A stretch of DNA of 64,000 bases. Origin: Clostridiales bacterium (GTDB lineage Bacteria; Bacillota; Clostridia; Oscillospirales; Acutalibacteraceae). The position numbers were made by a program, and so were the translations under genes. The stretch spans positions 1 through 64,000 of the forward strand of contig JAAWQC010000006.1 of NCBI GenBank assembly GCA_022800315.1. Reading direction: 5' to 3'. Shown here one piece after another: positions 14,556 to 29,192 of the stretch (its first letter is position 1; every line of letters starts with the position of its first letter). The notes under the pieces were generated by a model. It was not told where the DNA came from and did no database searches. It worked only from the letters and a program-made list of their open reading frames with translations.

Positions 14556-16204
14556 GTTTTTCCTATCCGGGGGCGGCGCAACGGGCGGTGGATAATTTCT
14601 CCCTCACTGTCGACAGCGGCGAGTTCCTCGTTCTCTGCGGGGAATCGGGCTGCGGTAAAACCACCCTGCTTCGCCTGCTGAAACGGGAACTGGCCCCGGC
14701 CGGAGAAAGAAGCGGGCGTATTCTGTACGACGGCGTCCCCCAGGAAGAGCTGGAGGCCCGGGTCAGCGCCCATGAGATCGGGTATGTACAGCAGAATCCC
14801 GACAGTCAAATCGTTACCGACAAGGTGTGGCACGAATTGGCCTTCGGTCTTGAAAACCTCGGCGTCCCCACCGCTTCTATCCGACGGCGGGTGGGGGAAA
14901 TGGCCAGCTATTTCGGCATACAGGACTGGTTCCGGCGGGATACCGATGAGCTGTCGGGCGGGCAGAAGCAGCTGCTCAACCTGGCATCGGTGATGGTCAT
15001 GCAGCCCCGGGTGCTGATCCTGGACGAACCCACCAGCCAGCTGGACCCCATCGCCGCCGCCGATTTCATCGCCACCCTGCACAAGCTCAACCGGGAGCTG
15101 GGTCTGACCATCCTGCTGGTGGAGCACCGGCTGGAGGAGGTGTTCCCGCTGGCCGACCGGGTGGTGCTGATGGAGCGGGGACGGCTGTTGCTGTGCGATA
15201 CCCCCCGGGCGGTGGGGGAGCGGCTGCGCGGCCGGGATATCGAACATCCCATGCTGGCGGGGCTTCCCAGTGCGGTGAGGATTTACCAGGCGCTGACGGC
15301 GAAAGGGGAGTGCCCCCTCACCGTCAAGGAGGGGCGGCAGTTCCTCAGCGCTCATTACCGGCCGGCGAAACCGGAACCGCCGGCCGCTCCCCTTCCCGCC
15401 GGCACACCGGCGGTGGAGCTGCGGGAGGTGTGGTTCCGGTACGAGCGGGACCTGCCCGATGTGCTGCGGGGGGTAAACCTGCGGGTATATCCGGGGGAGA
15501 TTTTTTGTCTGCTGGGCGGCAACGGCACCGGCAAGACCACCACCCTGAATGTGGCCGCGGGCCTGGACCGGGCTTATCGGGGCAAGGTGCTCATCGAGGG
15601 CAGGCCTATTCGGGAGTATAAGGGAAACACCCTGTATCGTCATCTTCTGGCCGCGCTGCCCCAGAATCCCCAGAGTGTCTTTCTGAAGAACAGCGTGGAG
15701 GAGGACCTGGAGGAGATTCCGGGGGCTATGGGGTTACCTCCCCACGAGCGGAAAACCCGCGTCGCGGATATGGCGGAGCGGCTGTGTATTGCGCCGCTGC
15801 TCAACCAACATCCTTACGATCTGAGCGGTGGTGAGCAGCAGAAATGCGCGTTGGCGAAAATGCTGCTGCTTCAGCCCCGCATCCTGCTGTTGGACGAGCC
15901 CACCAAGGGGCTGGACGCCGGTTTCAAACGGCAGCTGGGGGGACTGCTGGAGGAACTGAAGCGGGACGGCGCCGCTATCCTCATGGTGACCCACGATGTG
16001 GAGTTCGCCGCTGAGACCGCCGACCGCTGCGCCCTCTTTTTTGACGGGGAGGTGTTATCCGCCGCCCCGCCGCCCCTGTTCTTTGCGGACAACACGTTTT
16101 ATACCACGGCGGCCAGCCGCATGGCGCGGCATCTGTACCCCTACGCCGTCACCTGTGCCGGGGTGGCCGAAGAATGCAGGAAAGGCGGAATGATTGATGA
16201 TTAA
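14528..16204 (+). CDS. ECF transporter ATPase, fused A-A' (two ABC domains)
   Basis: 558 residues carrying two complete ABC ATPase domains in one chain. The first has Walker A GESGCGKTT (38-46), Q-loop QQNPDSQ, signature LSGGQ (about 142) and Walker B ILDEPTSQLD. The second has GGNGTGKTT (about 331), LPQNPQS, LSGGEQQ (about 432) and LLLDEPTKGLD. In most Firmicutes EcfA1 and EcfA2 are separate proteins; the fusion fits dedicated modules. It powers uptake through EcfT and the S component. The GAGGAG site lies inside the end of ecfT, and its stop overlaps the S-component gene. Confidence 0.92.
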   Translation: MDILQIEGLSFSYPGAAQRAVDNFSLTVDSGEFLVLCGESGCGKTTLLRLLKRELAPAGERSGRILYDGVPQEELEARVSAHEIGYVQQNPDSQIVTDKVWHELAFGLENLGVPTASIRRRVGEMASYFGIQDWFRRDTDELSGGQKQLLNLASVMVMQPRVLILDEPTSQLDPIAAADFIATLHKLNRELGLTILLVEHRLEEVFPLADRVVLMERGRLLLCDTPRAVGERLRGRDIEHPMLAGLPSAVRIYQALTAKGECPLTVKEGRQFLSAHYRPAKPEPPAAPLPAGTPAVELREVWFRYERDLPDVLRGVNLRVYPGEIFCLLGGNGTGKTTTLNVAAGLDRAYRGKVLIEGRPIREYKGNTLYRHLLAALPQNPQSVFLKNSVEEDLEEIPGAMGLPPHERKTRVADMAERLCIAPLLNQHPYDLSGGEQQKCALAKMLLLQPRILLLDEPTKGLDAGFKRQLGGLLEELKRDGAAILMVTHDVEFAAETADRCALFFDGEVLSAAPPPLFFADNTFYTTAASRMARHLYPYAVTCAGVAEECRKGGMIDD

Positions 16205-16874
16205 AAAAGGGCTGCGGTACGGCCTGCTTCTTCTGGTGATCCCGGCGATTCTGCTGACCGGCGCGCTGCTGTTCCGCGACAAACAGTATGCCTGGATGTC
16301 CCTCGGCATCGCGGTGGCGGCCTGCATCCCGTTTTTCCTCACCTTTGAAAAGGGAAAGGCGGGAACCCGGCAGATGATCGCGGTGGCGGTCATGATCGCC
16401 ATTGCCGTGGTGGGACGGCTGATTTTCGCCCCCCTTCCCGGTTTCAAGCCGGTGACGGCGATCGTGGTGATCGCCGCCCTGTATCTGGGCGGCGAGGCGG
16501 GCTTCGTCACCGGGGCGCTGGCGGCCCTCGTCTCCAACTTCTTTTTCGGCCAGGGGCCGTGGACCCCATTCCAGATGTTCACCTGGGGCCTCATCGGCCT
16601 GGCCGCGGGACTGCTGGCGGCGCCGCTGAAAAAGCATCTCGTCCTGCTGCTGATTTATGGGGCGGCGGCGGGGGTGTTTTTTTCCCTGCTGATGGACGTT
16701 TGGACCACCTTGTGGTACGACGGCGCCTTCAATTTGACGCGCTATCTTGCCGCCGTCGTTACGGCGGGGCCTTTTACCCTGGAATACGGGATATCCAACG
16801 TGATTTTTCTGCTGGTACTGGCAAAACCGGTGGGGGGGAAGCTGGAACGCATCAAAACGAAATACGGCCTGTGA
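16197..16874 (+). CDS. ECF transporter S component, probably for cobalamin (CbrT-like)
   Basis: 225 residues with about six membrane helices. It shows the S-component pattern GRLIFAPLPGFKPVTAIVVIAALYLGGEAGF followed by SNFFFGQGPWTPFQM, here quoted in parts, which marks the CbrT-like group that includes a cobalamin transporter. The S subunit sets substrate choice; cobalamin is inferred from the riboswitch and the transcobalamin-like partners. ATG is preferred over an adjacent in-frame TTG and follows GGAAAGGCGG. It overlaps the end of the ATPase gene by 8 bases and is the last gene of the operon. Confidence 0.86.
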   Translation: MIKKGLRYGLLLLVIPAILLTGALLFRDKQYAWMSLGIAVAACIPFFLTFEKGKAGTRQMIAVAVMIAIAVVGRLIFAPLPGFKPVTAIVVIAALYLGGEAGFVTGALAALVSNFFFGQGPWTPFQMFTWGLIGLAAGLLAAPLKKHLVLLLIYGAAAGVFFSLLMDVWTTLWYDGAFNLTRYLAAVVTAGPFTLEYGISNVIFLLVLAKPVGGKLERIKTKYGL

Positions 16875-16882
16875 GGAAAGGA

Positions 16883-16911
16883 TTGACAGACCCTTCCGCC
16901 ACGCTTAGAAT
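16883..16911 (+). promoter_or_regulatory. Sigma-A promoter for the amidohydrolase gene
   Basis: TTGACA, 17-base spacer, TAGAAT, 33 bases before the amidohydrolase start. It separates this gene from the B12 operon. Confidence 0.8.
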
Positions 16912-16944
16912 AGGGTCATCTTCGCCACAGAATCGAGGTTGACT

Positions 16945-17745
16945 ATGAAAATTTATGCCAATCACGCCCATGTTTTTCCGAAATCGGTGCGGGAGGACGG
17001 TACGGTGGACGTCCTGCTGCGCACCATGGACGACTGCGGTATCGAGAAGGCCGTGACCTTCGCCGCCTTCCCCAGTCAGCTGGGGCCGGGCGACGAGGAA
17101 CCCAACGCGGCGCTGGCCCGCCGCATACGGTCGGAGGACCGGCTCCGCGCTTTCGGCGTCATCGACTTTTCCCGTGGCGATCTGGAGGATCAGGTGGAGG
17201 CCATCTATCAGCTGGGGTTCCCCGGCATCAAGCTCCATCCCGCGTATCAGCATTTTCGCGTCGACGGGGAAGCGGCCTGCCGTGTATACGCCGCCGCACA
17301 GGAGCGGGACCTGTTTCTCAGCTTCCACACAGGGATCCACTGGCACCGCATCTCCGACTACAACGTGCTGCTGTTCGACGAGGTTGCCTATCGTTACCGC
17401 CAACTGCGCTTTAGCATGGAGCATGTGGGAGGCTATTGCTTTTTCCACGACGCGGTGGCGGTGATGCTGAACAATGGGGCCAACCCGCCCCGTATATACG
17501 CCGGTTTGACCAGTGTGTTCGACCGGGAGGAGAATCGGTTTTGGTTTCAAAGCGACGAGCGCATCCGCGACCTTCTCTGGCAGACGGGGGAGGAAGCCAG
17601 TATCTTTGGGCTGGATTTCCCCTATAACAGCACCGAAAAGATTCAGGCGGCCATCCGGCATATTCGGCAGATGGATATTTCCGAATCGGCGAAGGAGAAA
17701 ATCCTCGGCGGCAATCTCCGCCGGGTGCTGTCGTGGGACGAATAA
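16945..17745 (+). CDS. Amidohydrolase-family (TIM-barrel, metal-dependent) protein
   Basis: 266 residues of the amidohydrolase-2 type. The usual N-terminal HxH metal motif is NHAHVFP (H7, H9). A lysine/histidine pair, GIKLHPAYQHF, lies at about 92, later histidines are in SFHTGIHWHR and MEHVGG, and a terminal aspartate is in FGLDFPYNS. This is the pattern of metal-dependent hydrolases or decarboxylases; the substrate is unknown. ATG is chosen over an upstream TTG because of a GAGG site 6 bases before. It has its own promoter and a strong terminator. Confidence 0.82.
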   Translation: MKIYANHAHVFPKSVREDGTVDVLLRTMDDCGIEKAVTFAAFPSQLGPGDEEPNAALARRIRSEDRLRAFGVIDFSRGDLEDQVEAIYQLGFPGIKLHPAYQHFRVDGEAACRVYAAAQERDLFLSFHTGIHWHRISDYNVLLFDEVAYRYRQLRFSMEHVGGYCFFHDAVAVMLNNGANPPRIYAGLTSVFDREENRFWFQSDERIRDLLWQTGEEASIFGLDFPYNSTEKIQAAIRHIRQMDISESAKEKILGGNLRRVLSWDE

Positions 17746-17750
17746 GGAGG

Positions 17751-17780
17751 AAGAGGGACCGGCATTGCCGGTCCCTCTTG
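17751..17780. terminator. Terminator hairpin between convergent genes
   Basis: A 14-bp stem (AAGAGGGACCGGCA with its exact complement) lies directly after the amidohydrolase stop, facing the GNAT gene on the other strand. Confidence 0.8.
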
Positions 17781-17822
17781 CGCAATAGACAGGTCTTTTT
17801 TATTTTTTGTCAGGACGGTTAT

Positions 17823-18379
17823 CTACGACCTGAGTATATCCAACAGCCGCTCGGCGGGAATATCCCCTATCCATTTGACGGAGGGAGGATGGTCCACGCA
17901 GGGGCTGACACTTTTTTCGAGCCATGTCACGTCATGCCAGCTCCCCAGTTTATAGCCGGTGCGGCGATAGGTTCCGACAGGCGTAAAACCGAATTTCTCA
18001 TGAAATTTCCGGCTTTTTTCATTGGGGACGGTGTACCCCGCGTACGCATGACAGTATCCCAGATCGGTTAATATCCGAAACAGCTTTTGATACAGCAGCT
18101 CAGCGGCGCCGGTTCCGTGGTGCTGGGGGCTGACATAGATGGATACATCGACGTCGTAGTCGTAAGCCTGCCGCTTTCTGTGGCGGGAGGCATAGGCGTA
18201 TCCCACAATGACGCCGTCAAGGCAGCACACCAGATAGGGATACCGGCTGGTGATGCTTTCGATCCGTTGGGTAAATTCATCGACAGAGGGGACCTCTGTT
18301 TCGAAGGTTATGGCCGTGCCGCGGATAAAAGGTCCATAAATCTGCAGGATGTCACCCGCGTCGCCTGCGGCGAAGTCAT
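17823..18379 (-). pseudogene. GNAT N-acetyltransferase (phosphinothricin-type), 5' end frameshifted
   Basis: The open frame encodes a PAT-like GNAT core: ILQIYGPFIRGTAITFET, then VSIYVSPQHHGTGAAELLY (acetyl-CoA loop), NEKSRKFHEKFGF and GYKLGSWHDV. The N-terminal residues DDFAAGDAGDILQIY read in the same frame but have no start codon; a stop lies 10 residues before DILQIY-type homology begins. The only well-placed start, ATG at 18379 behind GGAGGTG, is in a different frame. One missing or extra base near 18340-18379 would restore a normal protein. Otherwise translation could begin only at an internal GTG (18230), removing part of the fold. Damaged gene or sequencing error. Confidence 0.6.
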
Positions 18380-18389
18380 CCGTTGTTCA

Positions 18390-18579
18390 CCTCCGTGCAC
18401 TGCATGTAAAAAGTTGCTGCGAGCGATAGATCACTTGCGGCGACTTGGCGGAGAAGGAATGGATGCGGGTCAGGGTGTGAAATCCACACAAAGAGGGCCA
18501 TGGGTGGACGAGTACGATCCGGACTGCCCAACCGAACTGCTGGTGGACGTGGAGGGGCCGCAGGAAAATATAAATAATA
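18390..18579. other. Gap with no supported gene
   Basis: 190 bases between the GNAT remnant and the next gene. Both strands stay open (one frame contains WVDEYDPDCPTELL), but no start with a ribosome site and no family signature is visible. The base composition changes from GC-rich to AT-rich close to here, so it may mark an island edge. Confidence 0.4.
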
Positions 18580-19260
18580 CTACTCCTTGAACAGCTTGGT
18601 TTTGCCGAAAAAGTTTTCGTCTGGAAAATGTTCTTCACGCCAGGTTTGCTCGTATTTCATTTCATACCTCGAAAATGTCCATGCCTTAATTGTTGTTGTC
18701 CCACTCGACATATGAAACCTGTGAGAATTGTTCCAATTGTCATAGTAGAGAACAAAAAAAGACAATAGGTCTCCTAACCGGGCGTAATCATCCAACAAAT
18801 AAATCTTATATCTGTTTTTATGATTGACTACGGTGAGATAACGCTCTACCAAAGCGACTTGTTCTCCGTCTAGATAGATGCTGATATACTCAAAACTGCC
18901 GCGCGTAATCGGGTAGGCGTGTAATGCCCCTACACAATCGGAGCCTGTAATGACATAAAAACTCTTTAGCAGAGCATGGCGCGAAAATATAAAGCGCCCC
19001 CAATCCTGCTCGTTTTTCCGGCACCGCATGATGCGGGTTATGCTTTCCCAACCCAATAGGTGCTTAAAGGGAATATAATTTGACCAATTAGAAAATACGT
19101 GCTTTCCTAAAATAACCACGTCATTGTGATTGTTGCGCATCCGAATACTCTGAAATTTGCTTGCGTTACCTAATGCTCCGGTAAAAGACAAATCGCCATT
19201 GCAGAACACTTCGAATCGCTGCGTGATATTTGAAGCGGTTTGCTCTATTTCTATAATCAT
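18580..19260 (-). CDS. Conserved hypothetical protein, possible tubby/LURP-like fold
   Basis: 226 residues, no signal peptide and no clear membrane helix. The closing part (YKIYLLDDYARLGDLLSFFVLYYD, quoted in parts, then a Trp/Tyr-rich end) resembles uncharacterised clostridial proteins that I associate with the LURP-one/tubby-like fold; this is memory of a pattern, not a demonstrated match. No catalytic motif is visible. The start is uncertain: an ATG 21 bases upstream is equally open but has no ribosome site. The gene is AT-richer than its left neighbours and belongs to the accessory stretch. Function unknown. Confidence 0.6.
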   Translation of the reverse strand: MIIEIEQTASNITQRFEVFCNGDLSFTGALGNASKFQSIRMRNNHNDVVILGKHVFSNWSNYIPFKHLLGWESITRIMRCRKNEQDWGRFIFSRHALLKSFYVITGSDCVGALHAYPITRGSFEYISIYLDGEQVALVERYLTVVNHKNRYKIYLLDDYARLGDLLSFFVLYYDNWNNSHRFHMSSGTTTIKAWTFSRYEMKYEQTWREEHFPDENFFGKTKLFKE

Positions 19261-19281
19261 AAAAGCACCGTCCACATCCAT

Positions 19282-19596
19282 GAATATATAGAACTATTGT
19301 ATCAGGTGCGAGCAAAAGAAGATACCCCGAATTAAATTACTAGGATACAATCCTTTTATATTCCGATTACGTGGATGCATCCAATCCCAGAAATGGCGTG
19401 AGAAGTGCTTCTCCGCCAGAAAATAGAGGCAAAGAAAAATCATCAACCAGCCTGAAACCGGTTGACGATTTTGTGAAAGGGCTACGAAAAAGATGCTTTG
19501 CTTTTTTCAATACGGTCAGCATCCCAAACCGTTGTCCTGTCTAATCAATCAATCGGCGCAATTCACATCACGCCTTATATGGGTATACCAATGATT
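19282..19596. other. Intergenic region holding an operon terminator
   Basis: 315 bases without a gene. The only clear element is the minus-strand terminator at 19437-19472. A promoter for the hypothetical gene to the left should also be here but is not obvious. Confidence 0.5.
19437..19472 (-). terminator. Terminator of the SipW/TasA-type surface operon
   Basis: On the minus strand AAATCGTCAACC pairs with GGTTGATGATTT (one mismatch), followed by TTCTTT. It lies about 125 bases after the last gene of the operon. Confidence 0.7.
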
Positions 19597-20289
19597 TCAT
19601 TCTTCAAGGGATTTCCTACGAGCTGCTGAAACGAGTTTTAGACCCCTGATTTTTTTCTTTATCGCTAACAGAACCACCATCATTCCAGCACTGAACAAGC
19701 AAGTCTCAACATACAGCCAGACGTCGGTGGAGTCGCCGGTTTGTGGCGGTTTCGGATCGTCCGGATCAATAGGAAGTTCCTCAACTTTAAAATGCCATTC
19801 CAACTTGCCGACAGCGTCTTGAAAATCATTGCCCATCTCAAGCGGAACATCCAGCTTCACATCTAAATTGACATCGGCCTCCGAATAGAAGGTGCCAAGG
19901 CACACCCAATCGGTCAGCCCGTCCGTCTGATCGGCGGGGGCGGCAAACAGCTTGGAATCTCCGTCCTGTGTAACCGTCAGGTTCATTTGAGAGAGAAAAT
20001 CCTCCGAACCCTCCTGCGCTCCGAGAGAACGCAGATAAATCTTTATCTTTACCTTGTTGGACACATCATTTATTACCGTGATTTTCTGCGTCAGACTGTC
20101 ACCCGGCATAACGCCTTTGAAGTTGTCAAACAAATCGGTAGGGGAATTATCGCTCCCCGGAGCAAAGATGAATTTCTGCGCGTTACCGTCATACTTGACA
20201 GAAGAGTCTGCGGCGCAAACAGGAAATGTCATGCCGACAGCTAATACAACAGCAAAGAGAGCAGATAAAACAGATTTCATTATTTTCAT
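19597..20289 (-). CDS. Surface protein with beta-sandwich and PPQTGD sorting-type signal
   Basis: Last gene of the operon, 230 residues. It has a type I signal peptide (about 1-26, VCAADS), a beta-rich body with [15 protein letters not shown], and a C-terminal PPQTGDS followed by a hydrophobic stretch and a basic tail, a variant of the LPxTG cell-wall sorting signal. Unlike the other small exported proteins here, its signal peptide is of the ordinary kind. It may tether the secreted fibre or adhesin to the wall. No sortase gene is in the window. ATG follows AAAGGGG by 9 bases. Confidence 0.75.
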
Positions 20290-20302
20290 AATATACGCCC
20301 CT

Positions 20303-20887
20303 TTACAGTTGGCTTGCGGCAGTCAAGTTGCCGTCCTCGGCAGCCTTAACCTCTGCCCATGCTGATTCTATCGTGTCGGAAGGCTGGCTCTGAATGGCTT
20401 CCGCTAAAATTTCCAGCACCTGCCCGTCCTGAAGTATACAGCTATCAATCAAATTATCGGTAAATTCACCCGGCTCCACAGGAAACTTATAATAGTAATA
20501 ATTACCCGCCTTGAACCAGCTCTCGTTGATTTTTACAGGAATATCCTTTAACCACTCGGCTATGTCTCCCACAATATGGCCCTCTGCATCTTTGTTGTAG
20601 CCTACCAGTCGGACGCGGATATATGCGGGAATATCCGAGGTATTTTTTATTTGAACGTTTTCTTTAACACCTGTAGCGGAATCAAAATCTTCCTGCACCT
20701 TGCAGTTTACCTGAGCTGGATTAAATTTGTTTTCCACTGGTTCCGTCTTAGCCGTAAGCCACGCCAGCGTTCCGCCGATCACGCAGCAGACTGCAAGGGA
20801 AAGTGAAGCGCACAGTACAGTGATCTTCGTTTGGAAACGCCTTTTCTTCCGGCTCCCTCTTCGAATATGTTTTCCTTCATACAGCAT
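20303..20887 (-). CDS. SipW-dependent TasA/camelysin-type protein (fourth copy)
   Basis: 194 residues. After a short basic N-terminus (RKKRRF) comes a membrane-type signal ending [21 protein letters not shown], quoted in parts; the LAWLTxKTxxVxNxF pattern is the SipW-class signal peptide. The body has [18 protein letters not shown] and [12 protein letters not shown], and a closing [10 protein letters not shown] helix typical of TasA/CalY-like subunits. Start codon and upstream stop overlap as TAATG, so it is coupled to the VWA gene. Probably a secreted fibre subunit; assembly is inferred. Confidence 0.8.
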
Positions 20888-23148
20888 TACCGTGTCCCTC
20901 CCTTCTCGTTGACCTTATGATCGTAGCCATTCAGCCATTGATTCTTTTCCTGCGTGTTGGTGCAGATAACGGAACCATCAGGCGTGTTTTTATTGATTTC
21001 TACTACGTTCTTATCAAACGTCGGATTCCAGCGCCAAGACCAACCGGTTTCCTCAGTGATGGTGTAGGTGCCCTTGGGGAGCTGCGTGATTGTCACCGAA
21101 CCGTTTCCAAAGGCGGTGACAGTCATATAATACTCGCCGTCTTTTTCGATATTGAAAACATACTTATCGCTCGCCAGGCCGCCGACTTTTGTAATAGTCA
21201 GCGTGCCTGACTTAACATGGACGGTAAAATCGGGGTCCCCTAACGTAAGGGATTCACAAGTCCCTGCATTCTTCGGTGTAACCGTACAGGTCACATCATA
21301 TTCCGTTGTCTTTTGCAGAGCAGGGGTACCGGATTGCCCAGCTTCCCATGTCCATGTACCGGTGGCATGTCCGGCGGGGATGGTATAGGTACCCACCAGT
21401 TCACCGCCAGTTTTTAATGTATAGACGATATCTACAAACTGATTCTTATGTCCATCGAGGTTATACGGTTCTTTCAATGAAAAGCGCCGGGTTAAATCGG
21501 CGGTTTCGCCAAGGAAAATGGTTTGATCTTCAGTAGCATATTCATACTGAATCAGCACATCTGTCGTGGGAATCTCGAAATTCTCCACCAGATTACCATC
21601 CTTATCATAAATACCGGAATCACTTCCGTTGGTTGGAACGGTATTGCCGCCGATAAATCCGTCACGGCGCTCAATGGGAATTTCAATAATCAGTTTCTTA
21701 CCGGGATGGACTTCTCCGCTGGATGTATTTTTTCCCACCCAATTTTTGCTGAAATCGAAACCGTTGACGCGGATGGTCTTTCTGTCAGCGTCAATGGTAG
21801 GGATCAGAGTGACAGGCTTCTCATTCGTCCAGACAGGTGTTTCGCCGTCAAAGGCGTAACAGTCTGCCATCTTGACGGCAATCTTGGAAGCATCCGCACC
21901 CGCAGGGAGCTGGAAGTAATCGGAAATCACATCTTTCACAACGGTCTCTGTGCCAAGTGTGACGGAAGCGCCGCCGATTTCATCGCTGATGGACTGAAAA
22001 ATATCCGACAAAGACTGCAAGTTGTCAGCAGACAGATAATAGCTCTTGCCGCCATTATACGGATCCGCATTTGGATTTAAAGTACCGCCATTCGTCATGC
22101 TTTCAGCGTTCGGATAGTTGCTGGATACATGGTGGAGATATTTATTGATATTTAGGTTATAATCCGTTGGATCAGCGCCTTCAACAACTCCAATGGTGTA
22201 AACGGTAGTGCCCTTGTTTTTCATTGATTTTGAAGCCGAAACGGTATCATTCGCCACAGAGGCATCAAAACCACTCCCATGATTTGGGTCGCCATCGGTG
22301 AACATAATTACGACTTTGTTGCTGTCTCTGTCAGCAGGAATGTCATCTATGATTTTTTGGGCATTCTGCATTCCATAATCCGCAGCCGTTGCGCCATTTT
22401 CCTGTAAGCTATTGATGGTATTTTTAAGGGCATCAGCTCCGTCCGGTACAGGTGTTAATTGATTTTTGATCGTTGAACTGCTTGCATAGGTAACAATAGC
22501 AATTTGATTATCGCCTTCCATTTGACTTGTTAAATCTATAAAATCATTTGCAGCAATTTTAATGGCGTTTATTTTTTTGATACCCACCGTATCGCCCAAC
22601 CAAGTACTATCGCAGTCCTGCCACCCCAAAATTGGAATATTATACTGCCATTTGTCATTTTGATACTGCATATCAAGCCATACTGCTCCGCCAAGCACTT
22701 TCCACTTATAATAGCTGGCATACTGGGGGTCAAGAATATTGAGTGAACCTTTGTCAGCAACATTGATATATTCCTTCATCGAGCCGGAAGTATCAAGAAC
22801 CAGTACGGTGTCGGTGGGTTTTTGTGTAACAGAAGTCATGGTGGACCCGGTGACGTAGGATTCAAGGCGGAGGGTATAAGTACCATCCTCATTTTTTGTA
22901 ACCGTCTTGCTTGTTTCAATGCCTGGATTATCTGTGCCAATCTTTGCATCGGTAAGTTTATTCATCTTGCGTACAGTAGGCACGACCGAGGACAGCGGCG
23001 CAACATTTGTGTAATTGACACAATCAAGCGTAGCAGTGCTTTCCTGCTCCGCTGCCCCTTGTGCCACCACAGCGTTTGCCGGTACAAGCGCCGCTACCGA
23101 TACTGACATTGCCAGTAGGAGAGATAGAACTTTACCTTTTATTTTCAT
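20887..23148 (-). CDS. Von Willebrand factor A-domain surface adhesin
   Basis: 753 residues with a signal peptide (about 1-29). A VWA domain carries a complete MIDAS: DTSGSM at 119-124 and VIMFTDGDPNH with D285. Beta-rich segments follow. The C-terminal domain (LTITKVGG ... YTITEETGW) looks like a prealbumin/Cna-B-type pilin fold. It ends KVNEKGGTR with no LPxTG signal, so anchoring depends on partners. The family includes tip adhesins of Gram-positive pili and fibres. AAGGAGGG precedes the ATG. Position between TasA-like genes suggests assembly into the same surface structure. Confidence 0.83.
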   Translation of the reverse strand: MKIKGKVLSLLLAMSVSVAALVPANAVVAQGAAEQESTATLDCVNYTNVAPLSSVVPTVRKMNKLTDAKIGTDNPGIETSKTVTKNEDGTYTLRLESYVTGSTMTSVTQKPTDTVLVLDTSGSMKEYINVADKGSLNILDPQYASYYKWKVLGGAVWLDMQYQNDKWQYNIPILGWQDCDSTWLGDTVGIKKINAIKIAANDFIDLTSQMEGDNQIAIVTYASSSTIKNQLTPVPDGADALKNTINSLQENGATAADYGMQNAQKIIDDIPADRDSNKVVIMFTDGDPNHGSGFDASVANDTVSASKSMKNKGTTVYTIGVVEGADPTDYNLNINKYLHHVSSNYPNAESMTNGGTLNPNADPYNGGKSYYLSADNLQSLSDIFQSISDEIGGASVTLGTETVVKDVISDYFQLPAGADASKIAVKMADCYAFDGETPVWTNEKPVTLIPTIDADRKTIRVNGFDFSKNWVGKNTSSGEVHPGKKLIIEIPIERRDGFIGGNTVPTNGSDSGIYDKDGNLVENFEIPTTDVLIQYEYATEDQTIFLGETADLTRRFSLKEPYNLDGHKNQFVDIVYTLKTGGELVGTYTIPAGHATGTWTWEAGQSGTPALQKTTEYDVTCTVTPKNAGTCESLTLGDPDFTVHVKSGTLTITKVGGLASDKYVFNIEKDGEYYMTVTAFGNGSVTITQLPKGTYTITEETGWSWRWNPTFDKNVVEINKNTPDGSVICTNTQEKNQWLNGYDHKVNEKGGTR

Positions 23149-23164
23149 TGTCTATTTTCCCTCC

Positions 23165-23731
23165 TTATGCTTCCGGCCAACCGGCTGCCTCTAGTGCGCT
23201 GTCCCCGTTGTTATCCGTCTGAACAGCGCCGGCTTTGACAGAGATTGTTGCCTTACTGTTTTGATATAGGTTGCTCATATCTTCGGAAAAGCTTACCTCG
23301 GTAAACAGCGGCTTGGTGGTCTCACTCGCAGCAAGCGGTTCGTTATAATAGTAATAGCCATCCTTTTCAGTCCAGTTTTCTCTGTCGATATTCAGCCCGA
23401 TCAGACCGAGATCGGCTTCTCCGACAGTTCCCTCCGCGAGAGCCAGTCCCTTCTCCAACTGGATGCGGATATAGGCGGTTTTGTCGCCGGTGTTTTTCAC
23501 CCCGACAATTTTGGATACCTTTCCACCTGGCATCACGCCGATCACGTCCTCAAAAGGAACGGGATCGGCGCCGTCCTCCGGAACGGCTGTTTCCTGCAAC
23601 TCGATCCGGACATTTCCGGTTGTGATAACATTGATAGCCGTATCCTCCGCCGTAAAATAAGCAATCGTTCCATAAGCAGCCAATGACAAACAGCTCACTG
23701 TCAAAGCCACAGCCACCAGTTTTCGTTTCAT
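23165..23731 (-). CDS. SipW-dependent TasA/camelysin-type protein (third copy)
   Basis: 188 residues. The N-terminus MKRKLVAVALTVSC...GTIAYFTAEDTAINVITTGNV is the SipW-class signal followed by the conserved GNV(R/D)I strand (quoted in parts). The body has MPGGKVSKIVGVKNTGDKTAYIRIQLE and YYYYNEPLAASE. Such proteins form amyloid-like matrix fibres (TasA in Bacillus subtilis) or surface layers; here this is by family. GAGGAGG precedes the start. A long hairpin occupies the 160-base gap upstream, possibly tuning its expression relative to the preceding copy. Confidence 0.82.
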   Translation of the reverse strand: MKRKLVAVALTVSCLSLAAYGTIAYFTAEDTAINVITTGNVRIELQETAVPEDGADPVPFEDVIGVMPGGKVSKIVGVKNTGDKTAYIRIQLEKGLALAEGTVGEADLGLIGLNIDRENWTEKDGYYYYNEPLAASETTKPLFTEVSFSEDMSNLYQNSKATISVKAGAVQTDNNGDSALEAAGWPEA

Positions 23732-23813
23732 AGTAGTTTTTCCTCCTCATTCATGATCATATTGCTTTATGTTTGGCTCAAATTTACCATCCGCCTTTTT
23801 CAGGCAAGGCATG

Positions 23814-23847
23814 TGTGGGCATTCCCGCACCCGCCGGAATGCCCACA
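23814..23847 (-). repeat. 12-bp perfect hairpin between two TasA-like genes
   Basis: TGTGGGCATTCC and its complement are separated by 10 GC-rich bases inside the operon. No T-run follows at once, so it is more likely an RNA-processing or stability element, or a small mobile palindrome, than a full terminator. Confidence 0.6.
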
Positions 23848-23891
23848 TACGCCCTGCCCTCAACCGAGGACAGGACAGTATGTAGGAAAGC

Positions 23892-24467
23892 TTATCCAAT
23901 GCAGGTGGCGAACCAAGCAGCGATTTCCTCAACGGTCATTGTCTGTACTTCAGCCCATTTGGTTCTGGCGCCCTGAGCTTGGACAGCCTCAGCTTTTACA
24001 ACGATGTCATAAATGCCGTCAAAACCGTTGGTGACGTCGGTGGAGAGAACGACCTGGTCGAACAAAGCGTCGGTGGTGTTACTTCCTTCTTCCGTGCCGA
24101 GAACCTTGCTGTAGTAGTAATAATCACCGTGTTTTACCCAGTTTTCACCCAGCTTACCATCTACATAATCAGTACGATAAGACAGGGCCACATTTTCCGG
24201 CCACTCCACTTTTATGCGGACAAATGCCGGGTTCTTGCCGGTATTCTCAACGGTGGGATCCTTAGCGACTGCCTCGCCCGGATACAGATCTTCGACTTCT
24301 TCTGCATCCCACTTCGGCTCGGTCAGAGTAATGTCAACATTGCCGATAGTGAGGGTGTTGTGCTTCTCATCCTTGTCGGTGAAATAGGCCAGAGAGGAGC
24401 CGACAACGGCGACGGCGACCAGAGAAGCGGCCAGTGCGATGGAGAGAATTTTTTTCTTTGCGTTCAT
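23892..24467 (-). CDS. SipW-dependent TasA/camelysin-type protein (second copy)
   Basis: 191 residues. The signal MNAKKKILSIALAASLVAVA... ends GSSLAYFTDKDEKHNTLTIGNV (quoted in parts), the closest match here to the classic SipW substrate pattern. DPTVENTGKNPAFVRIKVEWP, YYYYSKVL and a final AWFATCIG helix follow. A longer frame extends upstream, but this ATG has an AAAGGAAG site 9 bases before it. As a probable major fibre subunit it sits second after the peptidase. Identity as TasA proper is not claimed. Confidence 0.83.
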   Translation of the reverse strand: MNAKKKILSIALAASLVAVAVVGSSLAYFTDKDEKHNTLTIGNVDITLTEPKWDAEEVEDLYPGEAVAKDPTVENTGKNPAFVRIKVEWPENVALSYRTDYVDGKLGENWVKHGDYYYYSKVLGTEEGSNTTDALFDQVVLSTDVTNGFDGIYDIVVKAEAVQAQGARTKWAEVQTMTVEEIAAWFATCIG

Positions 24468-24563
24468 GGTACAATACTTCCTTTCAGAATATAAATTTAC
24501 TAACCAGTTAATAGGCCGGTTATTGCCTGTAAATAGGGAAAGAGGTTGGAAGCCTGTTTCCAA

Positions 24564-25112
24564 CTATGCGGCCGAAACTGTTTTCCAAGCCTCAGCGGGA
24601 CTGAAATCCGCTTCGCTGCTCTTGTGCTGCTGTACCGCATAGACGGTGAAGGTCAGGGTCGGGAACGTATCCGATTTCAAATCGTCCATCATGGCCTTGT
24701 CAACAGTATCATTGACAGTTACGCTGTTGTCTTTCAGAACAGCAAACGTCTGATCAGCCGCACTGTTTGTCACCTGACGGTAGAAAACACCGGATTCGCT
24801 CTCTAAGGGCGTCCAGCCATTCGCCATGTCATAGGTCATAAAGGTATCAAAGTTTTCAGATTTCTCAACTTTGACGAACAGCCAGCAGTCCTCGCTGTCC
24901 TTAGTAACAGTTACTGTCGGATCCTTTGCAATGGTACAGCCGGGAATCATCTTATAATTTTCAGTGGTTTCTTTTAATTTGATATCTACATTTCCCACCG
25001 TAAAGGTATTGACAACAGAATCTGTTTTATCGGTCAGCCAGGCCAGTGTCACGCAGTTCACAAAGCAAAGAACCAACGCCGCCGCAACAGAAGCTATGAC
25101 TTCCTTTTTCAT
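24564..25112 (-). CDS. SipW-dependent TasA/camelysin-type protein (first copy)
   Basis: 182 residues. The SipW-class signal ends VTLAWLTDKTDSVVNTFTVGNVDIKL (quoted in parts). The body has CTIAKDPTVTVTKDSEDCWLFVKVEKS and a closing SSEADFSPAEAWKTVSAA. Two cysteines lie in the mature part (near CTIAKDP and EDCWLF), which the other copies lack, so a disulfide is possible. AAAGGAGGAG precedes the ATG. It lies 84 bases after the sipW stop and is probably translated from the same transcript. Confidence 0.82.
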   Translation of the reverse strand: MKKEVIASVAAALVLCFVNCVTLAWLTDKTDSVVNTFTVGNVDIKLKETTENYKMIPGCTIAKDPTVTVTKDSEDCWLFVKVEKSENFDTFMTYDMANGWTPLESESGVFYRQVTNSAADQTFAVLKDNSVTVNDTVDKAMMDDLKSDTFPTLTFTVYAVQQHKSSEADFSPAEAWKTVSAA

Positions 25113-25196
25113 GTTTTCTCCTCCTTTCTCCTTGTTTTAATAAAATATCGTCCGAAAAATTCAGGCGGTATTTTCTTGAGTAAACAGTCCCGCCGG

Positions 25197-25724
25197 TCAG
25201 TCATGCTTTTCTATTTCGGACACTGCAGGCGGTTCCTTTTTCCAAGCGTTCAGCAGCTCGGGCAAAAGCAGCACGGCTCCTGCCGCAATAGCTATATACA
25301 GTCCCGGCGGATTTTGAATATAAGTGGAAACATAACCGAGATAAGGAATGGAAAATACCGGTATACCGATTAGATTATTGAAATGTACCGGTGCACCGTC
25401 GGCGTTTTCATTGGCATCGCCTTTGGTATAAAATCGCTGATTTTCCTTGTCAATTTCAATCACACGGTGAGTCGCTACCACCAAATCCTCATTCAGCACA
25501 AAGGTGATAGCCTGGCCGACCTTGACCTCCTCCGGCGTTACCTTCTTTACATAAATGAGGGAACCCGTTTGATAGGTCGGTTCCATACTGCCGGACAGGA
25601 CGGTGTACGGCTGTAATCCAACAAGGCGGACCCCCACCAAAAGGACGGCGAGGATCACCGCTATTACCACGAAAACGGTGGTGATAATATTCAGTGCTTT
25701 TAGGATTCGTTTGGATACGGCCAT
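25197..25724 (-). CDS. sipW: Signal peptidase I, SipW (ER) type
   Basis: 175 residues with an N-terminal membrane helix, catalytic Ser46 in VLSGSMEPTYQTGSLIYVK (quoted in part) and His86 in ATHRVIEI. A histidine in place of the usual lysine is the mark of the ER/SipW class that processes TasA-like proteins. A second membrane helix lies near the C-terminus (LYIAIAAGAVLLLP). ATG follows AAAGGA by 7 bases. First gene of the minus-strand surface operon, 71 bases from the near inverted repeat of the invertible segment, which therefore sits exactly where its promoter should be. Confidence 0.92.
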   Translation of the reverse strand: MAVSKRILKALNIITTVFVVIAVILAVLLVGVRLVGLQPYTVLSGSMEPTYQTGSLIYVKKVTPEEVKVGQAITFVLNEDLVVATHRVIEIDKENQRFYTKGDANENADGAPVHFNNLIGIPVFSIPYLGYVSTYIQNPPGLYIAIAAGAVLLLPELLNAWKKEPPAVSEIEKHD

Positions 25725-25795
25725 GATTTGATCCTTTCTGTGGATTTTATCATCCGGGGAAATTCGCATAAAGTATCGTTATAACCCGGCATAAA

Positions 25796-25817
25796 GACAT
25801 AAGGTTGATTATGTCGC
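25796..25817 (+). repeat. Left inverted repeat of the invertible segment (recombinase core site)
   Basis: 22 bp, exactly the reverse complement of 26026-26047. Within it, 7-bp arms GACATAA and TTATGTC flank an asymmetric 6-bp centre GGTTGA, the form of a tyrosine-recombinase crossover site. Confidence 0.9.
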
Positions 25818-25891
25818 CGGCAATAATGAAGACTTGGACAGTAGGCGGACTGTCAATCTTCTAAAAAGTCACTGGAATATCAGCGGCGGCT

Positions 25892-25961
25892 AAAAAGGGC
25901 GCAAAAGAACAGCCGGAGGAAAATCATGGATGATCCCGGCTTGTTTTTTCGCGCCCTTTTT
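25892..25961. terminator. Bidirectional terminator-like hairpin inside the invertible segment
   Basis: AAAAAGGGCGC pairs with GCGCCCTTTTT, and inside it GCCGG pairs with CCGGC with nearly matching sequence between. T-runs exist in both readings, so it would insulate sipW from recombinase transcription in either orientation. Confidence 0.75.
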
Positions 25962-25981
25962 AAACTTTTCAACGATATGTA

Positions 25982-26010
25982 TTGCAAAATCAGCTAGAAT
26001 ATGATATATT
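25982..26010 (+). promoter_or_regulatory. Promoter at the right end of the invertible segment (faces away from sipW)
   Basis: TTGCAA, 17-base spacer, TATATT in an AT-rich setting. As sequenced it reads antisense into the recombinase gene; after inversion it would drive sipW. No equally good promoter faces sipW now. Confidence 0.65.
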
Positions 26011-26025
26011 ATTTTAAATCGGATA

Positions 26026-26047
26026 GCGACATAATCAACCTTATGTC
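26026..26047 (-). repeat. Right inverted repeat of the invertible segment (recombinase core site)
   Basis: Exact 22-bp reverse complement of 25796-25817. It includes the TAA stop codon (26041-26043) and the last coding bases of the recombinase gene, so inversion leaves the coding sequence unchanged up to the crossover. Confidence 0.9.
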
Positions 26048-26862
26048 ATCAGCAGCTTTTCGACCCGTTCCAAACGGTGCCTGTGTTCGTTGCCGGTTTC
26101 CATTGTATAAATTCGGGTGGTATTCACGCTGCTGTGGCCGAGCAAATCGGCCAGACGAACGATGTCCTTATCCACGCTGTAAAATGTTCTGGCAAAGAGA
26201 TGCCGCAGATTGTGTGGAAACACCTTGTTCGGAGATATGCCCGCCCGTTCGCAGAGAAATTTCATGTCCCGCCAGATATTCCGGCGGTTCAGCGGCTTTC
26301 CGTTTCTTGTTACAAAGACTGTTCCGGCTGTAATGCCGGATTTTTTCATATATGGCTGCAACATCTTTTGAATTGACGTGGGGATGAAGATCACCCTCGT
26401 CTTATTTTTGCAGTTCACCACCGCTTTGCCTGCTCGTACTGCTTCCGCCGTAATATATTGCAGCTCGCTTACTCGAATACCGGTGCCGCAGATCGTCTGG
26501 ATCACCAGCGATATCCGGGTGTTTCCGGCTGCTTTCACCAGCCGTTGGTATTCTGCCTTTGTCAGTTCCTTGTCCTCTCGGCTGAAAATCTGCCGCTGAA
26601 TTTTAAGAGACTTCACGCAGCAGTCCTGCAATCCGATAAAACGCAGGAAACAGTTGAGAGCGATCAGCATAGAATTGACGCTGGACGGGGCATACCGTGC
26701 CCTCAGGTACTCTTTATATGCAATAGTTTTCTCTTTGCTGATTGGTCTGTCCGCCAGAAAAGCATAAAAGCAGCGAATATCCCGCCGGTATTTTTCAATG
26801 GTCGCCGCACTTTTTTCTTCTGTAATCAAATACTGTTCAAATTTTGAAATCTGTTCGTCCAT
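26041..26862 (-). CDS. Tyrosine recombinase (XerC/D-like), probable invertase of the adjacent switch
   Basis: 273 residues with an N-terminal SAM-like core-binding domain (about 1-85) and a catalytic domain with all expected residues: R130 in GTGIRVSEL, a lysine in CKNKTRV, H217 and R220 in PHNLRHLF, a histidine in LLGHSS and the nucleophile Y252 in RIYT. It lacks the arm-binding domain of phage integrases, so it suits short core sites such as the neighbouring 22-bp repeats. GGAGG lies 8 bases before the ATG. A role in inverting the segment is inferred from adjacency. Confidence 0.9.
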   Translation of the reverse strand: MDEQISKFEQYLITEEKSAATIEKYRRDIRCFYAFLADRPISKEKTIAYKEYLRARYAPSSVNSMLIALNCFLRFIGLQDCCVKSLKIQRQIFSREDKELTKAEYQRLVKAAGNTRISLVIQTICGTGIRVSELQYITAEAVRAGKAVVNCKNKTRVIFIPTSIQKMLQPYMKKSGITAGTVFVTRNGKPLNRRNIWRDMKFLCERAGISPNKVFPHNLRHLFARTFYSVDKDIVRLADLLGHSSVNTTRIYTMETGNEHRHRLERVEKLLMT

Positions 26863-27017
26863 ATTTCTTTCCTCCACAAGTTTATATATGGTTAGCATTC
26901 CCTTATTTCGTTTTACTATAAGGGGTCGTGGCGGAAAAAAGTGCGGCGGCGGGCCGTGAAGCAAGCCATAAAAAGAGAAATTTTATAAAAAAGCCTTGCT
27001 TTTTCGCCCGTGGTGCG

Positions 27018-27158
27018 TAAGATGTGACTCACATTAATCAGATCTTTAAGGAAGATGCGGCCATGCTGTAAATATCTGAGATTGTAAAGAAAATTGAGGA
27101 AATGTTCGAACTGTTCAACCAGCATTTTTACGGCGAAGAGTCTTTCGGGAGGAAATAA
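27018..27158 (+). pseudogene. Possible remnant of an unknown small protein
   Basis: Two consecutive in-frame pieces separated by one TAA: NQIFKEDAAML and EIVKKIEEMFELFNQHFYGEE, ending FGRK. The helical, charged sequence looks coding rather than random, but there is no clear start. I do not recognise the family. Confidence 0.3.
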
Positions 27159-27332
27159 AAGAAATTGTTAAAAAGTATCCAGGCCAAGATACTTTTTTAC
27201 GATTCCTTTGGTTTTTTACCTTACTTATATAGGGTGGGGTGCAAATCCGGAGCCTTTGGGGTATTCCCGGCAGTCAACTATGCCGCAGGCGAACTTTTTG
27301 GGCCGCCGTATTACCTCGTGAAAATAGAAAAA

Positions 27333-27366
27333 GCCCGGAAACCGTATGAATACACGGTTTTCGGGC
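27333..27366. terminator. Terminator-like hairpin
   Basis: GCCCGGAAACCGT pairs with ACGGTTTTCGGGC around an 8-base loop, in the gap between recombinase and VOC gene. No adjacent gene clearly needs it. Confidence 0.55.
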
Positions 27367-27374
27367 ATAGACGC

Positions 27375-27407
27375 AAAAACAGCCCTCCAAAACGGAAGGC
27401 TGTTTTT
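27375..27407. terminator. Terminator of the VOC gene region
   Basis: AAAAACAGCC pairs with GGCTGTTTTT, with CTCC/GGA pairing inside. T-runs occur on both strands. It lies about 115 bases after the minus-strand VOC gene. Confidence 0.7.
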
Positions 27408-27465
27408 ATATCAAAGTTTACGCTTTGATTTGTGAGAGGCACATAAAAAAGATAATTCCGGCTTT

Positions 27466-27487
27466 TCGGAGGTGGGAGTTGAACCCA
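27466..27487 (-). other. tRNA-like 3' fragment (T-arm plus acceptor strand)
   Basis: On the minus strand TGGG-TTCAACT-CCCA forms a T stem and canonical 7-base T loop, followed by CCTCCGA. No 5' half or matching acceptor strand is upstream. It could be an attachment-site scar or chance. Confidence 0.3.
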
Positions 27488-27521
27488 AACAAATACAACT
27501 GATGTGCATTTGATGAATAAA

Positions 27522-27902
27522 CTATTCATTGTAATACAGTGCCCAACAAACACCAAATTTATCTACTACTAGTCCTAACAACGTTGCCCACGGAAAAGGT
27601 CCTTCTAAACTACAATTTAAAGATTGTGCAGAAAGAATATCATATGCCTTTTTCAAATCGTTCTCACTGTCAAAATGAAATTCACAGCACATTGCGTTTT
27701 CAATGATTTTATCAACTTTTTCACCCGGGGCTAGGAGAATTTTAATTCCATCCAAGTCCATTACAATGTGAATATCTTTGCCATCTGGCGGTATATTCTC
27801 AGAAATCTTTTTAGCATGAAAAGCTTGTTGATACATTTCAAAGGCTTCAATTCTTTCTTCATTTGTCTTCCCGATGTTAAAAGCCATCGCAAATTTTCCC
27901 AT
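27522..27902 (-). CDS. VOC-superfamily protein (PhnB/glyoxalase-like)
   Basis: 126 residues of the vicinal-oxygen-chelate type. Paired beta-alpha-beta units, YQQAFHAKKI near the start and the closing VVDKFGVCWALYYNE are characteristic of PhnB-like proteins. Metal ligands are not obvious and the substrate is unknown; many such proteins bind drugs or small metabolites. GGAGG lies 7 bases before the ATG. Its codon use is clearly AT-rich compared with the housekeeping genes to the right, so it belongs to the transferred stretch that ends at the tRNA-Ser gene. Confidence 0.8.
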   Translation of the reverse strand: MGKFAMAFNIGKTNEERIEAFEMYQQAFHAKKISENIPPDGKDIHIVMDLDGIKILLAPGEKVDKIIENAMCCEFHFDSENDLKKAYDILSAQSLNCSLEGPFPWATLLGLVVDKFGVCWALYYNE

Positions 27903-27955
27903 ATTGTTTCCTCCAAAACTAATATAAATAACGGATTATTATATTATACAAAAAC

Positions 27956-28000
27956 AAAAAGCACAACACAGGAGTTTAACTCCACAATGCTGTGCTTTTT
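27956..28000 (-). terminator. Terminator after tRNA-Ser(GCT)
   Basis: AAAAAGCACA pairs with TGTGCTTTTT, with extra pairing inside (GGAGTT/AACTCC), directly downstream of the minus-strand tRNA. Confidence 0.8.
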
Positions 28001-28001
28001 C

Positions 28002-28092
28002 TGGCGGAGAAGGAGGGACTCGAACCCTCGCGCCAGTTGCCCGGCCTACGCCCTTAGCAGGGGCGCCTCGTCACCAACTTGAGTACTTCTCC
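28002..28092 (-). tRNA. tRNA-Ser (GCT)
   Basis: 91 nt including encoded CCA. Acceptor stem GGAGAAG/CTTCTCC, anticodon stem-loop CGCCC-CTGCTAA-GGGCG, a long variable arm and T arm GAGGG-TTCGAGT-CCCTC. It reads AGC/AGU codons and marks the right edge of the AT-rich island. Confidence 0.95.
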
Positions 28093-28099
28093 GTATGGT

Positions 28100-28130
28100 A
28101 AAACCGCGTGTGGTAAACAGGCGGTTTTAT
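28100..28130 (-). terminator. Terminator-like hairpin after ddh
   Basis: AAAACCGC pairs with GCGGTTTT just downstream of the dehydrogenase stop and upstream of tRNA-Ser(GCT). Confidence 0.6.
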
Positions 28131-28149
28131 CTATTCAATTGTTAAGGAA

Positions 28150-29034
28150 TCAGACAAGCCGTCGAATCAGGGATTCCCGCTCGCCCGCCAAAAGGTCGAT
28201 GGGGGGGAGCTCAATCATGGTGTAACATCCGGGCGTCTGCTTTTTGACGGCGCGGGCGGCGGCCACCAGGATCTGGCCGGTGAGGGCGGGGTTGTTGATG
28301 CTCATCTGAAAGCGCATATTCTGATTCTGAGTAGAACCGGAGACACCTTTGCGGGTGAGATCGACGCCGTGTCCCATATCCTTGAGCGCATCCACGCTTT
28401 CCACCGCGATGACATGGGTCTCATCGTGGATGAAGTAGGGATCGGCCTTGATCGCGGCGGCGGCCGTTTCGTAATCGGCGCCGGGCTCCAGCTCGATGTA
28501 CACCATGCGGCGATGGAGACCGGTACCAACGGGGATGGTCATGGACAGGGCGTTTTTAACACCGGCGATCGCTTTGACAGCCACGGTGTGACCCATGCTC
28601 ATACCAGGGCCGAAGTTGGTATAGGTAAGGCCTTTGGGAGCCATGGCTTCCAGAATGGCCCGCACCATGGAATCGGTGCCGGGGTCCCAGCCGGCGGACA
28701 TGACAGCCGCCGTACCGTTTGCTTTGGCCACCGCGTCAAGGCGCTGGCGGACCTCATACACCGAGGAGTGGATGTCGTAGCTGTCCACCGTGCAGATCCC
28801 TTTCGCCAGCAGATCGGCGGCGAGATCGGGGACGGCGCGGCTTGGGGAACAGAGGATGGCCACATCCACGGGGAGAAGGGCATCGATCGACCGAGCCACC
28901 GGGATATTCCCCAGTGCGCCGGGCTCCAGCGATCCGCTGACGACGCCGGCGATTTCGAAATCGGGGCTTTCCTTCAGCGCGTCCAGAGCGAAATGACCAA
29001 TGTTTCCATATCCGTAAACGACGGCTCTCAGCAT
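28150..29034 (-). CDS. ddh: meso-Diaminopimelate D-dehydrogenase
   Basis: NADPH-dependent enzyme that reductively aminates tetrahydrodipicolinate to meso-diaminopimelate in one step, feeding lysine and peptidoglycan synthesis. The 294-residue protein shows a Rossmann start (VVYGYGNIGHFAL), SAGWDPGTDSM, the substrate loop GPGMSMGHTVAVKAI and GTGLHRRMVYIELEPG, all marks of this family. The ATG chosen lies 8 bases after AAAGGA; the ATG three codons earlier overlaps that site. Flanked by two tRNA-Ser genes on the same strand. Confidence 0.9.
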   Translation of the reverse strand: MLRAVVYGYGNIGHFALDALKESPDFEIAGVVSGSLEPGALGNIPVARSIDALLPVDVAILCSPSRAVPDLAADLLAKGICTVDSYDIHSSVYEVRQRLDAVAKANGTAAVMSAGWDPGTDSMVRAILEAMAPKGLTYTNFGPGMSMGHTVAVKAIAGVKNALSMTIPVGTGLHRRMVYIELEPGADYETAAAAIKADPYFIHDETHVIAVESVDALKDMGHGVDLTRKGVSGSTQNQNMRFQMSINNPALTGQILVAAARAVKKQTPGCYTMIELPPIDLLAGERESLIRRLV

Positions 29035-29087
29035 GTAGTCCATCCTTTGCTGTTAACGTGTGTCCGCCAGCACTGGCGGGAAAAGTG

Positions 29088-29174
29088 TGGCGGAGAGGAA
29101 GGGATTCGAACCCTTGGCTCTGACGAGTCACTGGTTTTCAAGACCAGCTCCTTAAACCGCTCGGACACCTCTCC
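29088..29174 (-). tRNA. tRNA-Ser (TGA)
   Basis: 87 nt with encoded CCA. Acceptor GGAGAGG/CCTCTCC, anticodon arm CTGGT-CTTGAAA-ACCAG, long variable arm and T arm AAGGG-TTCGAAT-CCCTT. It reads UCN codons. Confidence 0.95.
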
Positions 29175-29192
29175 ATTTTGCTGACGCAGATC

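Follow-up and report, generated by a model that had tools for sequence, protein, structure and literature searches.

A 208-bp intergenic segment in a 64,000-nt stretch of a Clostridiales bacterium contig (JAAWQC010000006.1, hereafter the window) is very probably an invertible promoter (inverton), by which the adjacent tyrosine recombinase would switch a SipW/camelysin/BsaA/VWA operon ON and OFF. An earlier note had proposed such a phase-variable switch here, and this reading is supported by a predicted promoter inside the segment, conserved paired sites, both orientations among relatives and contigs ending at the site. In the proposed mechanism, which is deduced from conservation, the recombinase would bind both 20-22-bp dyad sites and exchange strands within their 6-bp centre, whereupon the segment is reversed. 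In the ON orientation, an extended -10 promoter would fire into sipW and the camelysin/BsaA/VWA operon; in the OFF orientation, that of the present assembly, it would transcribe the recombinase gene from its 3' end. Behind the promoter, a two-way terminator would halt read-through from the recombinase gene and keep the operon silent when OFF, and a SipW-dependent surface or matrix structure would thus be expressed reversibly. Three points are inferences from the sequence: in this strain, the recombinase would flip the segment, sipW would be transcribed from its promoter, and the proteins made would form a fibre or matrix.

Features of the predicted switch and the adjoining genes (positions in the window)
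Feature	Position	Strand	Basis or remark
Probable wall-anchored protein, last gene of the run	19597..20289	-	PPQTG motif near the C terminus, read by eye
BsaA-family SipW-dependent matrix protein	20303..20887	-	family match
Large VWA-domain surface protein	20887..23148	-	domain match
BsaA-family SipW-dependent matrix protein	23165..23731	-	family match
Camelysin / BsaA-family SipW-dependent matrix protein	23892..24467	-	family matches
Small secreted protein, paralogue of the next camelysin/TasA-type protein	24564..25112	-	36% identity to its neighbour
sipW-type signal peptidase, first gene of the putatively controlled operon	25197..25724	-	start codon inferred from Shine-Dalgarno AGAAAGGA
Left recombination site, inverted repeat	25796..25817	+	dyad GACATAA-ggttga-TTATGTC, sequence GACATAAGGTTGATTATGTCGC
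Predicted invertible segment, 208 bp	25818..26025	.	flipped homologue: G137:C61
Strong hairpin with U-tracts on both strands, predicted two-way terminator	25891..25962	.	z = -5.5 and -5.8
Promoter, TTGCAA-17-TATATT, TG-extended -10, OFF direction	25982..26010	+	sequence prediction, score 12.3
Right recombination site, left-site sequence inverted	26026..26047	-	holds the recombinase stop codon
Tyrosine recombinase, 273 aa, presumed local invertase	26041..26862	-	domain and family alignment evidence

The sequence at 26026-26047 is the exact reverse complement of GACATAAGGTTGATTATGTCGC at 25796-25817, with a spacing of 208 bp. The second-longest perfect inverted repeat around the switch has 15 bp (surrounding 4 kb), and chance alone would give about 5e-7 perfect 22-bp pairs in 4 kb, which we estimated as 4000^2/2 over 4^22. 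Each repeat is a dyad with the arms GACATAA/TTATGTC around the asymmetric centre ggttga, and the pattern GACATAA-N6-TTATGTC was found at the two switch sites and nowhere else when the whole 2.45-Mb genome was searched. Short perfect inverted repeats hence surround an intergenic segment, as in promoter invertons, with sipW on one flank and a complete tyrosine recombinase gene on the other. The stop codon TAA of the latter falls within the right-hand repeat; because both repeats are identical, its reading frame would be unaltered by inversion. On the minus strand, the sipW-side junction reads TTGCCGGCGACATAATCAACCTTATGTCTTTATGCCGG in the OFF state and would read CGGATAGCGACATAATCAACCTTATGTCTTTATGCCGG in the ON state. 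A perfect 15-bp inverted repeat (CGCCGCACTTTTTTC, 26803-26817 / 26934-26948) straddles the 5' end of the recombinase gene and was not seen in the relatives, except for an identical contig (G083:C83).

The recombinase comprises a core-binding (residues 5-75) and a catalytic domain (99-255) only. R130, K152/K154, H217, R220, H243 and Y252 are invariant in the alignment of the recombinase family, and this R-K-H-R-H-Y set, together with the two domains and without an arm-binding domain, is that of a simple, Xer-like tyrosine recombinase or invertase. The sites are likewise Xer-like, having two inverted binding arms around an exchange region of 6-8 bp which is the same in both partners. The protein is not a chromosomal XerC/XerD/XerA equivalog, since it scored 154.5 bits for XerA (cut-off 220) and ~114-117 bits for XerC and XerD (cut-offs > 329). 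The description in the earlier note held when checked: exact 22-bp inverted repeats which bound a 208-bp segment, repeats which are each a core site of 7-bp arms and the asymmetric centre GGTTGA, a position between sipW and a complete recombinase, and a recombinase with all catalytic residues which lacks an arm-binding domain.

The first gene of the operon encodes a SipW-type signal peptidase and later ones encode SipW-dependent camelysin/TasA/BsaA proteins, an arrangement of the SipW/TasA type. The peptidase exceeded the cut-off of TIGR02228 and reached 102 bits against a cut-off of 190 for the Bacillus SipW equivalog NF046067; it is related to the Bacillus protein without being that protein. 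Its start codon is likely at 25724 rather than at 25769, the former being preceded by a good Shine-Dalgarno sequence. TIGR04088 was above the cut-off in two proteins of the operon and PF12389 (Pfam) in one, and TIGR04090 remained below the cut-off in three (41-51 of 60 bits). For the probable wall-anchored protein, profile searches gave no family match. Operon and switch lie in a stretch which is missing from the congener G001 (approximate limits 17751-28008 of the window); the G001 contig starts at a tRNA-Ser gene (28008; tRNA 28002-28092). The stretch is possibly an accessory island adjoining the tRNA gene, and an empty site in one piece, which would give the island boundaries, was not found in the comparison with G001.

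Within the segment, an outward-facing promoter is predicted, which ends 15 bp short of the right repeat; its score was reached by none of 60 dinucleotide shuffles of the segment. As the predicted promoter faces away from sipW and enters the recombinase gene from its 3' end, antisense to it, the orientation in the window is OFF. The earlier note mentioned neither this OFF state nor the antisense direction of the promoter, nor the two-way terminator which would insulate the operon. The same orientation is present in both assemblies which hold the locus (2/2; G000, the genome of the window, and G083, whose bin includes a contig 99.98% identical to the window). Inversion would bring the promoter to 25833-25861 (minus strand), and the transcript would then begin ~100 nt before the sipW start codon. 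The hairpin has a folding energy of about -39 kcal/mol and T-runs on both strands. Since the recombinase gene reads toward sipW, it is the predicted terminator that would prevent expression of the operon in the OFF orientation; an additional operon promoter may exist. Concerning the contig in G083, a genome which is assigned to another genus and whose recombinase is 100% identical, horizontal transfer was considered and is disfavoured: the contig (G083:C83, locus L137) is 99.98% identical over all its 14,042 bp (window 15145-29186), and one flanking gene also exists in G083 as a separate, diverged copy. Mis-binning of the contig is likelier.

To examine conservation, the recombinase was searched in 148 related genomes, in GTDB species genomes (80 loci) and in IMG/VR (16 loci); the genome collections contain one genome per species. 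Most loci with enough downstream sequence have a pair of inverted repeats directly 3' of the recombinase gene, ~160-430 bp apart. In order to avoid circularity, sites were searched by their arms only (ACATAA-N6-TTATGT). Two or more such sites just 3' of the recombinase gene were found in at least 66 related loci, and none in 1.18 Mb of control flanking DNA. The centres are exact reverse complements of each other in 65 of the 66 loci; in the exception, L005, the far site has a mutated arm, so that two tandem near sites were compared and scored as direct. The loci have 50 distinct 6-nt centres, not one of which is self-complementary. Constant arms combined with a variable, yet matched and asymmetric centre fit homology-dependent strand exchange by a tyrosine recombinase. 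Loss of the repeats in strains carrying recombinase and operon, which the earlier note had named as an observation that would speak against a switch, was thus looked for, and paired sites with matched centres turned out to be kept.

A single dominant promoter was predicted in 76 of 81 distinct segments, directed toward the recombinase (OFF) in 56 and toward the downstream genes (ON) in 20. The mean best promoter score is 13.2, compared to 8.6 (sd 1.8) for shuffles. Most of the dominant promoters have 17-bp spacing and a TG-extended -10 box and lie 15-50 bp from the exit edge. In 73 of 80 segments, the best hairpin is located behind the promoter; significant stability (z below -2) is limited to 54.

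The earlier note had suggested a search for the flipped form in related genomes, and this form was found in six locus pairs with homologous recombinases and homologous downstream genes as well as in a more distant locus. The segments of L012 and L054 align in inverted orientation over the whole 240 bp (77%), while their flanks, with 82% DNA identity in the recombinase gene and 90% or more protein identity in the downstream gene, keep the gene order unchanged. Shorter stretches are flipped between L040/L048, L048/L104, L082/L108, L010/L067 and L011/L067. The more distant locus, G137:C61, belongs to another family of the order and has sites with the identical centre GGTTGA. Its segment is reversed compared to the window, and the recombinase remnant has the same orientation as in the window. 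The promoter (TTGTAA-17-TAAAAT, TG-extended, read by eye) faces a downstream operon encoding an LPXTG protein, a BsaA-type protein and a SipW-type peptidase; judged by this arrangement, G137:C61 looks like a switch caught ON. Its recombinase is internally deleted (residues 31-164 are gone), and an intact second paralogue in the same genome (L010) might act on it in trans. Both orientations of a promoter inverton are hence represented, in relatives with the same flanking genes and at a site with the same centre.

Assembly ends provide further evidence. On the inner side of the dyad, the contigs of L007, L019, L044, L053, L077, L092 and L107 stop 0-4 bp past its edge; an eighth contig (L033) stops at an imperfect dyad. 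A contig end lies ≤ 150 bp from the 3' end of the recombinase gene in 14 of 108 loci, and as close to its 5' end in one of 108. If both orientations are present, the assembly graph must branch at the site, and a 20-25-bp repeat alone should not halt an assembler using longer k-mers; contig ends at the site therefore point to mixed orientations. They indicate that the populations of several relatives probably hold both segment orientations.

Three other explanations were weighed against a functional switch. Sites and recombinase may have stayed intact merely by descent, with a segment which no longer flips in this lineage and an operon which is permanently OFF or driven from elsewhere. Both assemblies do run unbroken through the segment in the same OFF orientation, and the remnant in G137:C61 demonstrates that the recombinase can be lost in a relative. 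In the window, however, no catalytic residue is missing from the full-length recombinase, the sites are identical over 22 bp, and the predicted promoter and terminator are intact, which renders this explanation unlikely.

Tyrosine recombinases are commonly integrases, and recombinase and repeats might accordingly be transposon ends or an integrase with its attachment site instead of a regulatory switch. In line with this, relatives of the recombinase occur in IMG/VR contigs, and recombinase, sites and sipW are all missing from the two congeners. A mobile element is nevertheless very improbable: the repeats enclose only promoter and terminator, never the recombinase gene; they are inverted, ~160-430 bp apart, and stay beside the recombinase 3' end even where the genomic surroundings differ greatly; and the ends of an element would not yield both segment orientations between the same flanking genes. 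Least probable of all is a fixed RNA or protein-binding structure (attenuator, operator) with a promoter of constant direction. Each 22-bp repeat folds as a hairpin, as such a structure might, but it would neither retain identical, lineage-specific centres in inverted copies nor appear flipped beside the same neighbours. An invertible promoter is thus the preferred reading.

Promoter invertons with a nearby tyrosine recombinase are already established, Clostridia included. In Clostridioides difficile, RecV acts on more than one switch. The RecV switches (flagellar flgB, PMC5386303; cwpV, PMC3080850) resemble the one described here by mechanism, being located in a clostridium and combining a tyrosine recombinase, inverted repeats and surface-structure genes; in contrast, every cassette here comes with an adjacent recombinase and a centre of its own, and the segment carries a terminator besides the promoter. 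In the hCom2 gut community, inverton group 139 (invertase group 35) has 32 of its 33 invertons in Clostridia, and flipping was measured from reads (PMC11892184, Microbiome 2025). As described there, these invertons have short inverted repeats and nearly all are beside a tyrosine-type recombinase, whereas SipW is unmentioned in the main text; our guess is that they may be of the same family as the switch in the window. In Bacteroides, a tyrosine recombinase likewise flips promoters controlling surface traits (capsule and outer-membrane-vesicle loci, e.g. PMC4747536), but phylum and promoter type differ, and SipW/TasA-type operons are not among the described targets which we found. The sipW-bsaA operon of Clostridium perfringens, which is of the same type, shows bimodal ON/OFF expression and forms a filamentous matrix; there, bimodality results from the BsaRS two-component system and PilA2, not from DNA inversion (PMC7395162). 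In the open-access literature searched, no SipW/TasA-type operon was found described as phase-variable or as driven by an invertible promoter, and this cargo of an inverton appears to be undescribed before. An entire secreted fibre or matrix operon of uncultured gut Clostridia would be subject to a reversible genetic coin toss.

The related switches form a large set, situated before adhesins, collagen-like proteins, S-layer-type proteins and regulators. Among the first downstream genes of 73 loci, many encode surface proteins (S-layer homology, BspA-type LRR, List-Bact repeats, collagen-like, cohesin/dockerin), while nine are for TetR-type regulators and four for SPFH proteins. In ~16 loci (window, L009, L016, L036, L038, L040, L048, L057, L068, L075, L081, L095, L103, L104, L108 and G137:C61), a SipW-type peptidase or a BsaA/camelysin-type protein is encoded downstream on the same strand, and both directions of the predicted promoter are represented among them. 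L075 belongs to a cultured relative, Holdemania sp. Marseille-P2844. We infer that these genes belong to the switched operon in the relatives as well; several are not its first gene. A wider and tentative proposal, which we consider rather doubtful, is that of a portable switch cassette which is widespread among gut Clostridia (recombinase, sites with a private centre, promoter and two-way terminator) placed before unrelated surface operons, with SipW/TasA-type fibres among the commonest; the OFF promoter would produce antisense RNA across the recombinase gene, and the position of the switch would feed back on the rate at which it flips. This feedback is a suggestion from geometry alone. The rule seen in the set, with fixed ACATAA/TTATGT arms, a centre which varies between loci and is identical in both copies, a promoter near one edge and a terminator mid-segment, offers an easy way to detect such switches and, with no more than an assembled genome, to predict which state they are in.

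A TetR-type regulator is located directly downstream of the invertible promoter in L008, L040, L048, L057, L082, L108 and L125, and in this position it would render a whole regulon phase-variable. L005, L009, L040, L048, L055, L057, L079 and L081 carry a tandem duplication of the site, either to one side of the segment or to both; in L040 and L048, which are homologous but flipped, the doubled site is on opposite sides. The IMG/VR contigs L113-L126 encode recombinases closely related to that of the window, many of them accompanied by the same paired sites, and several contigs stop exactly at the recombinase stop codon, which suggests host flank at trimmed prophage ends; these loci are either phage-borne switches or such host flank. 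Finally, one genome has ~15 copies of a related recombinase, whose sites are of a separate type, ACATTA-N6-TAATGT (loci in G124: L130-L136, L142-L144, L162-L164; in G095: L129, L141). The centre TTGATA is common to most of the copies examined and TAGATA is found in a few, and recombination between these loci seems possible, unlike between cassettes with locus-specific centres.
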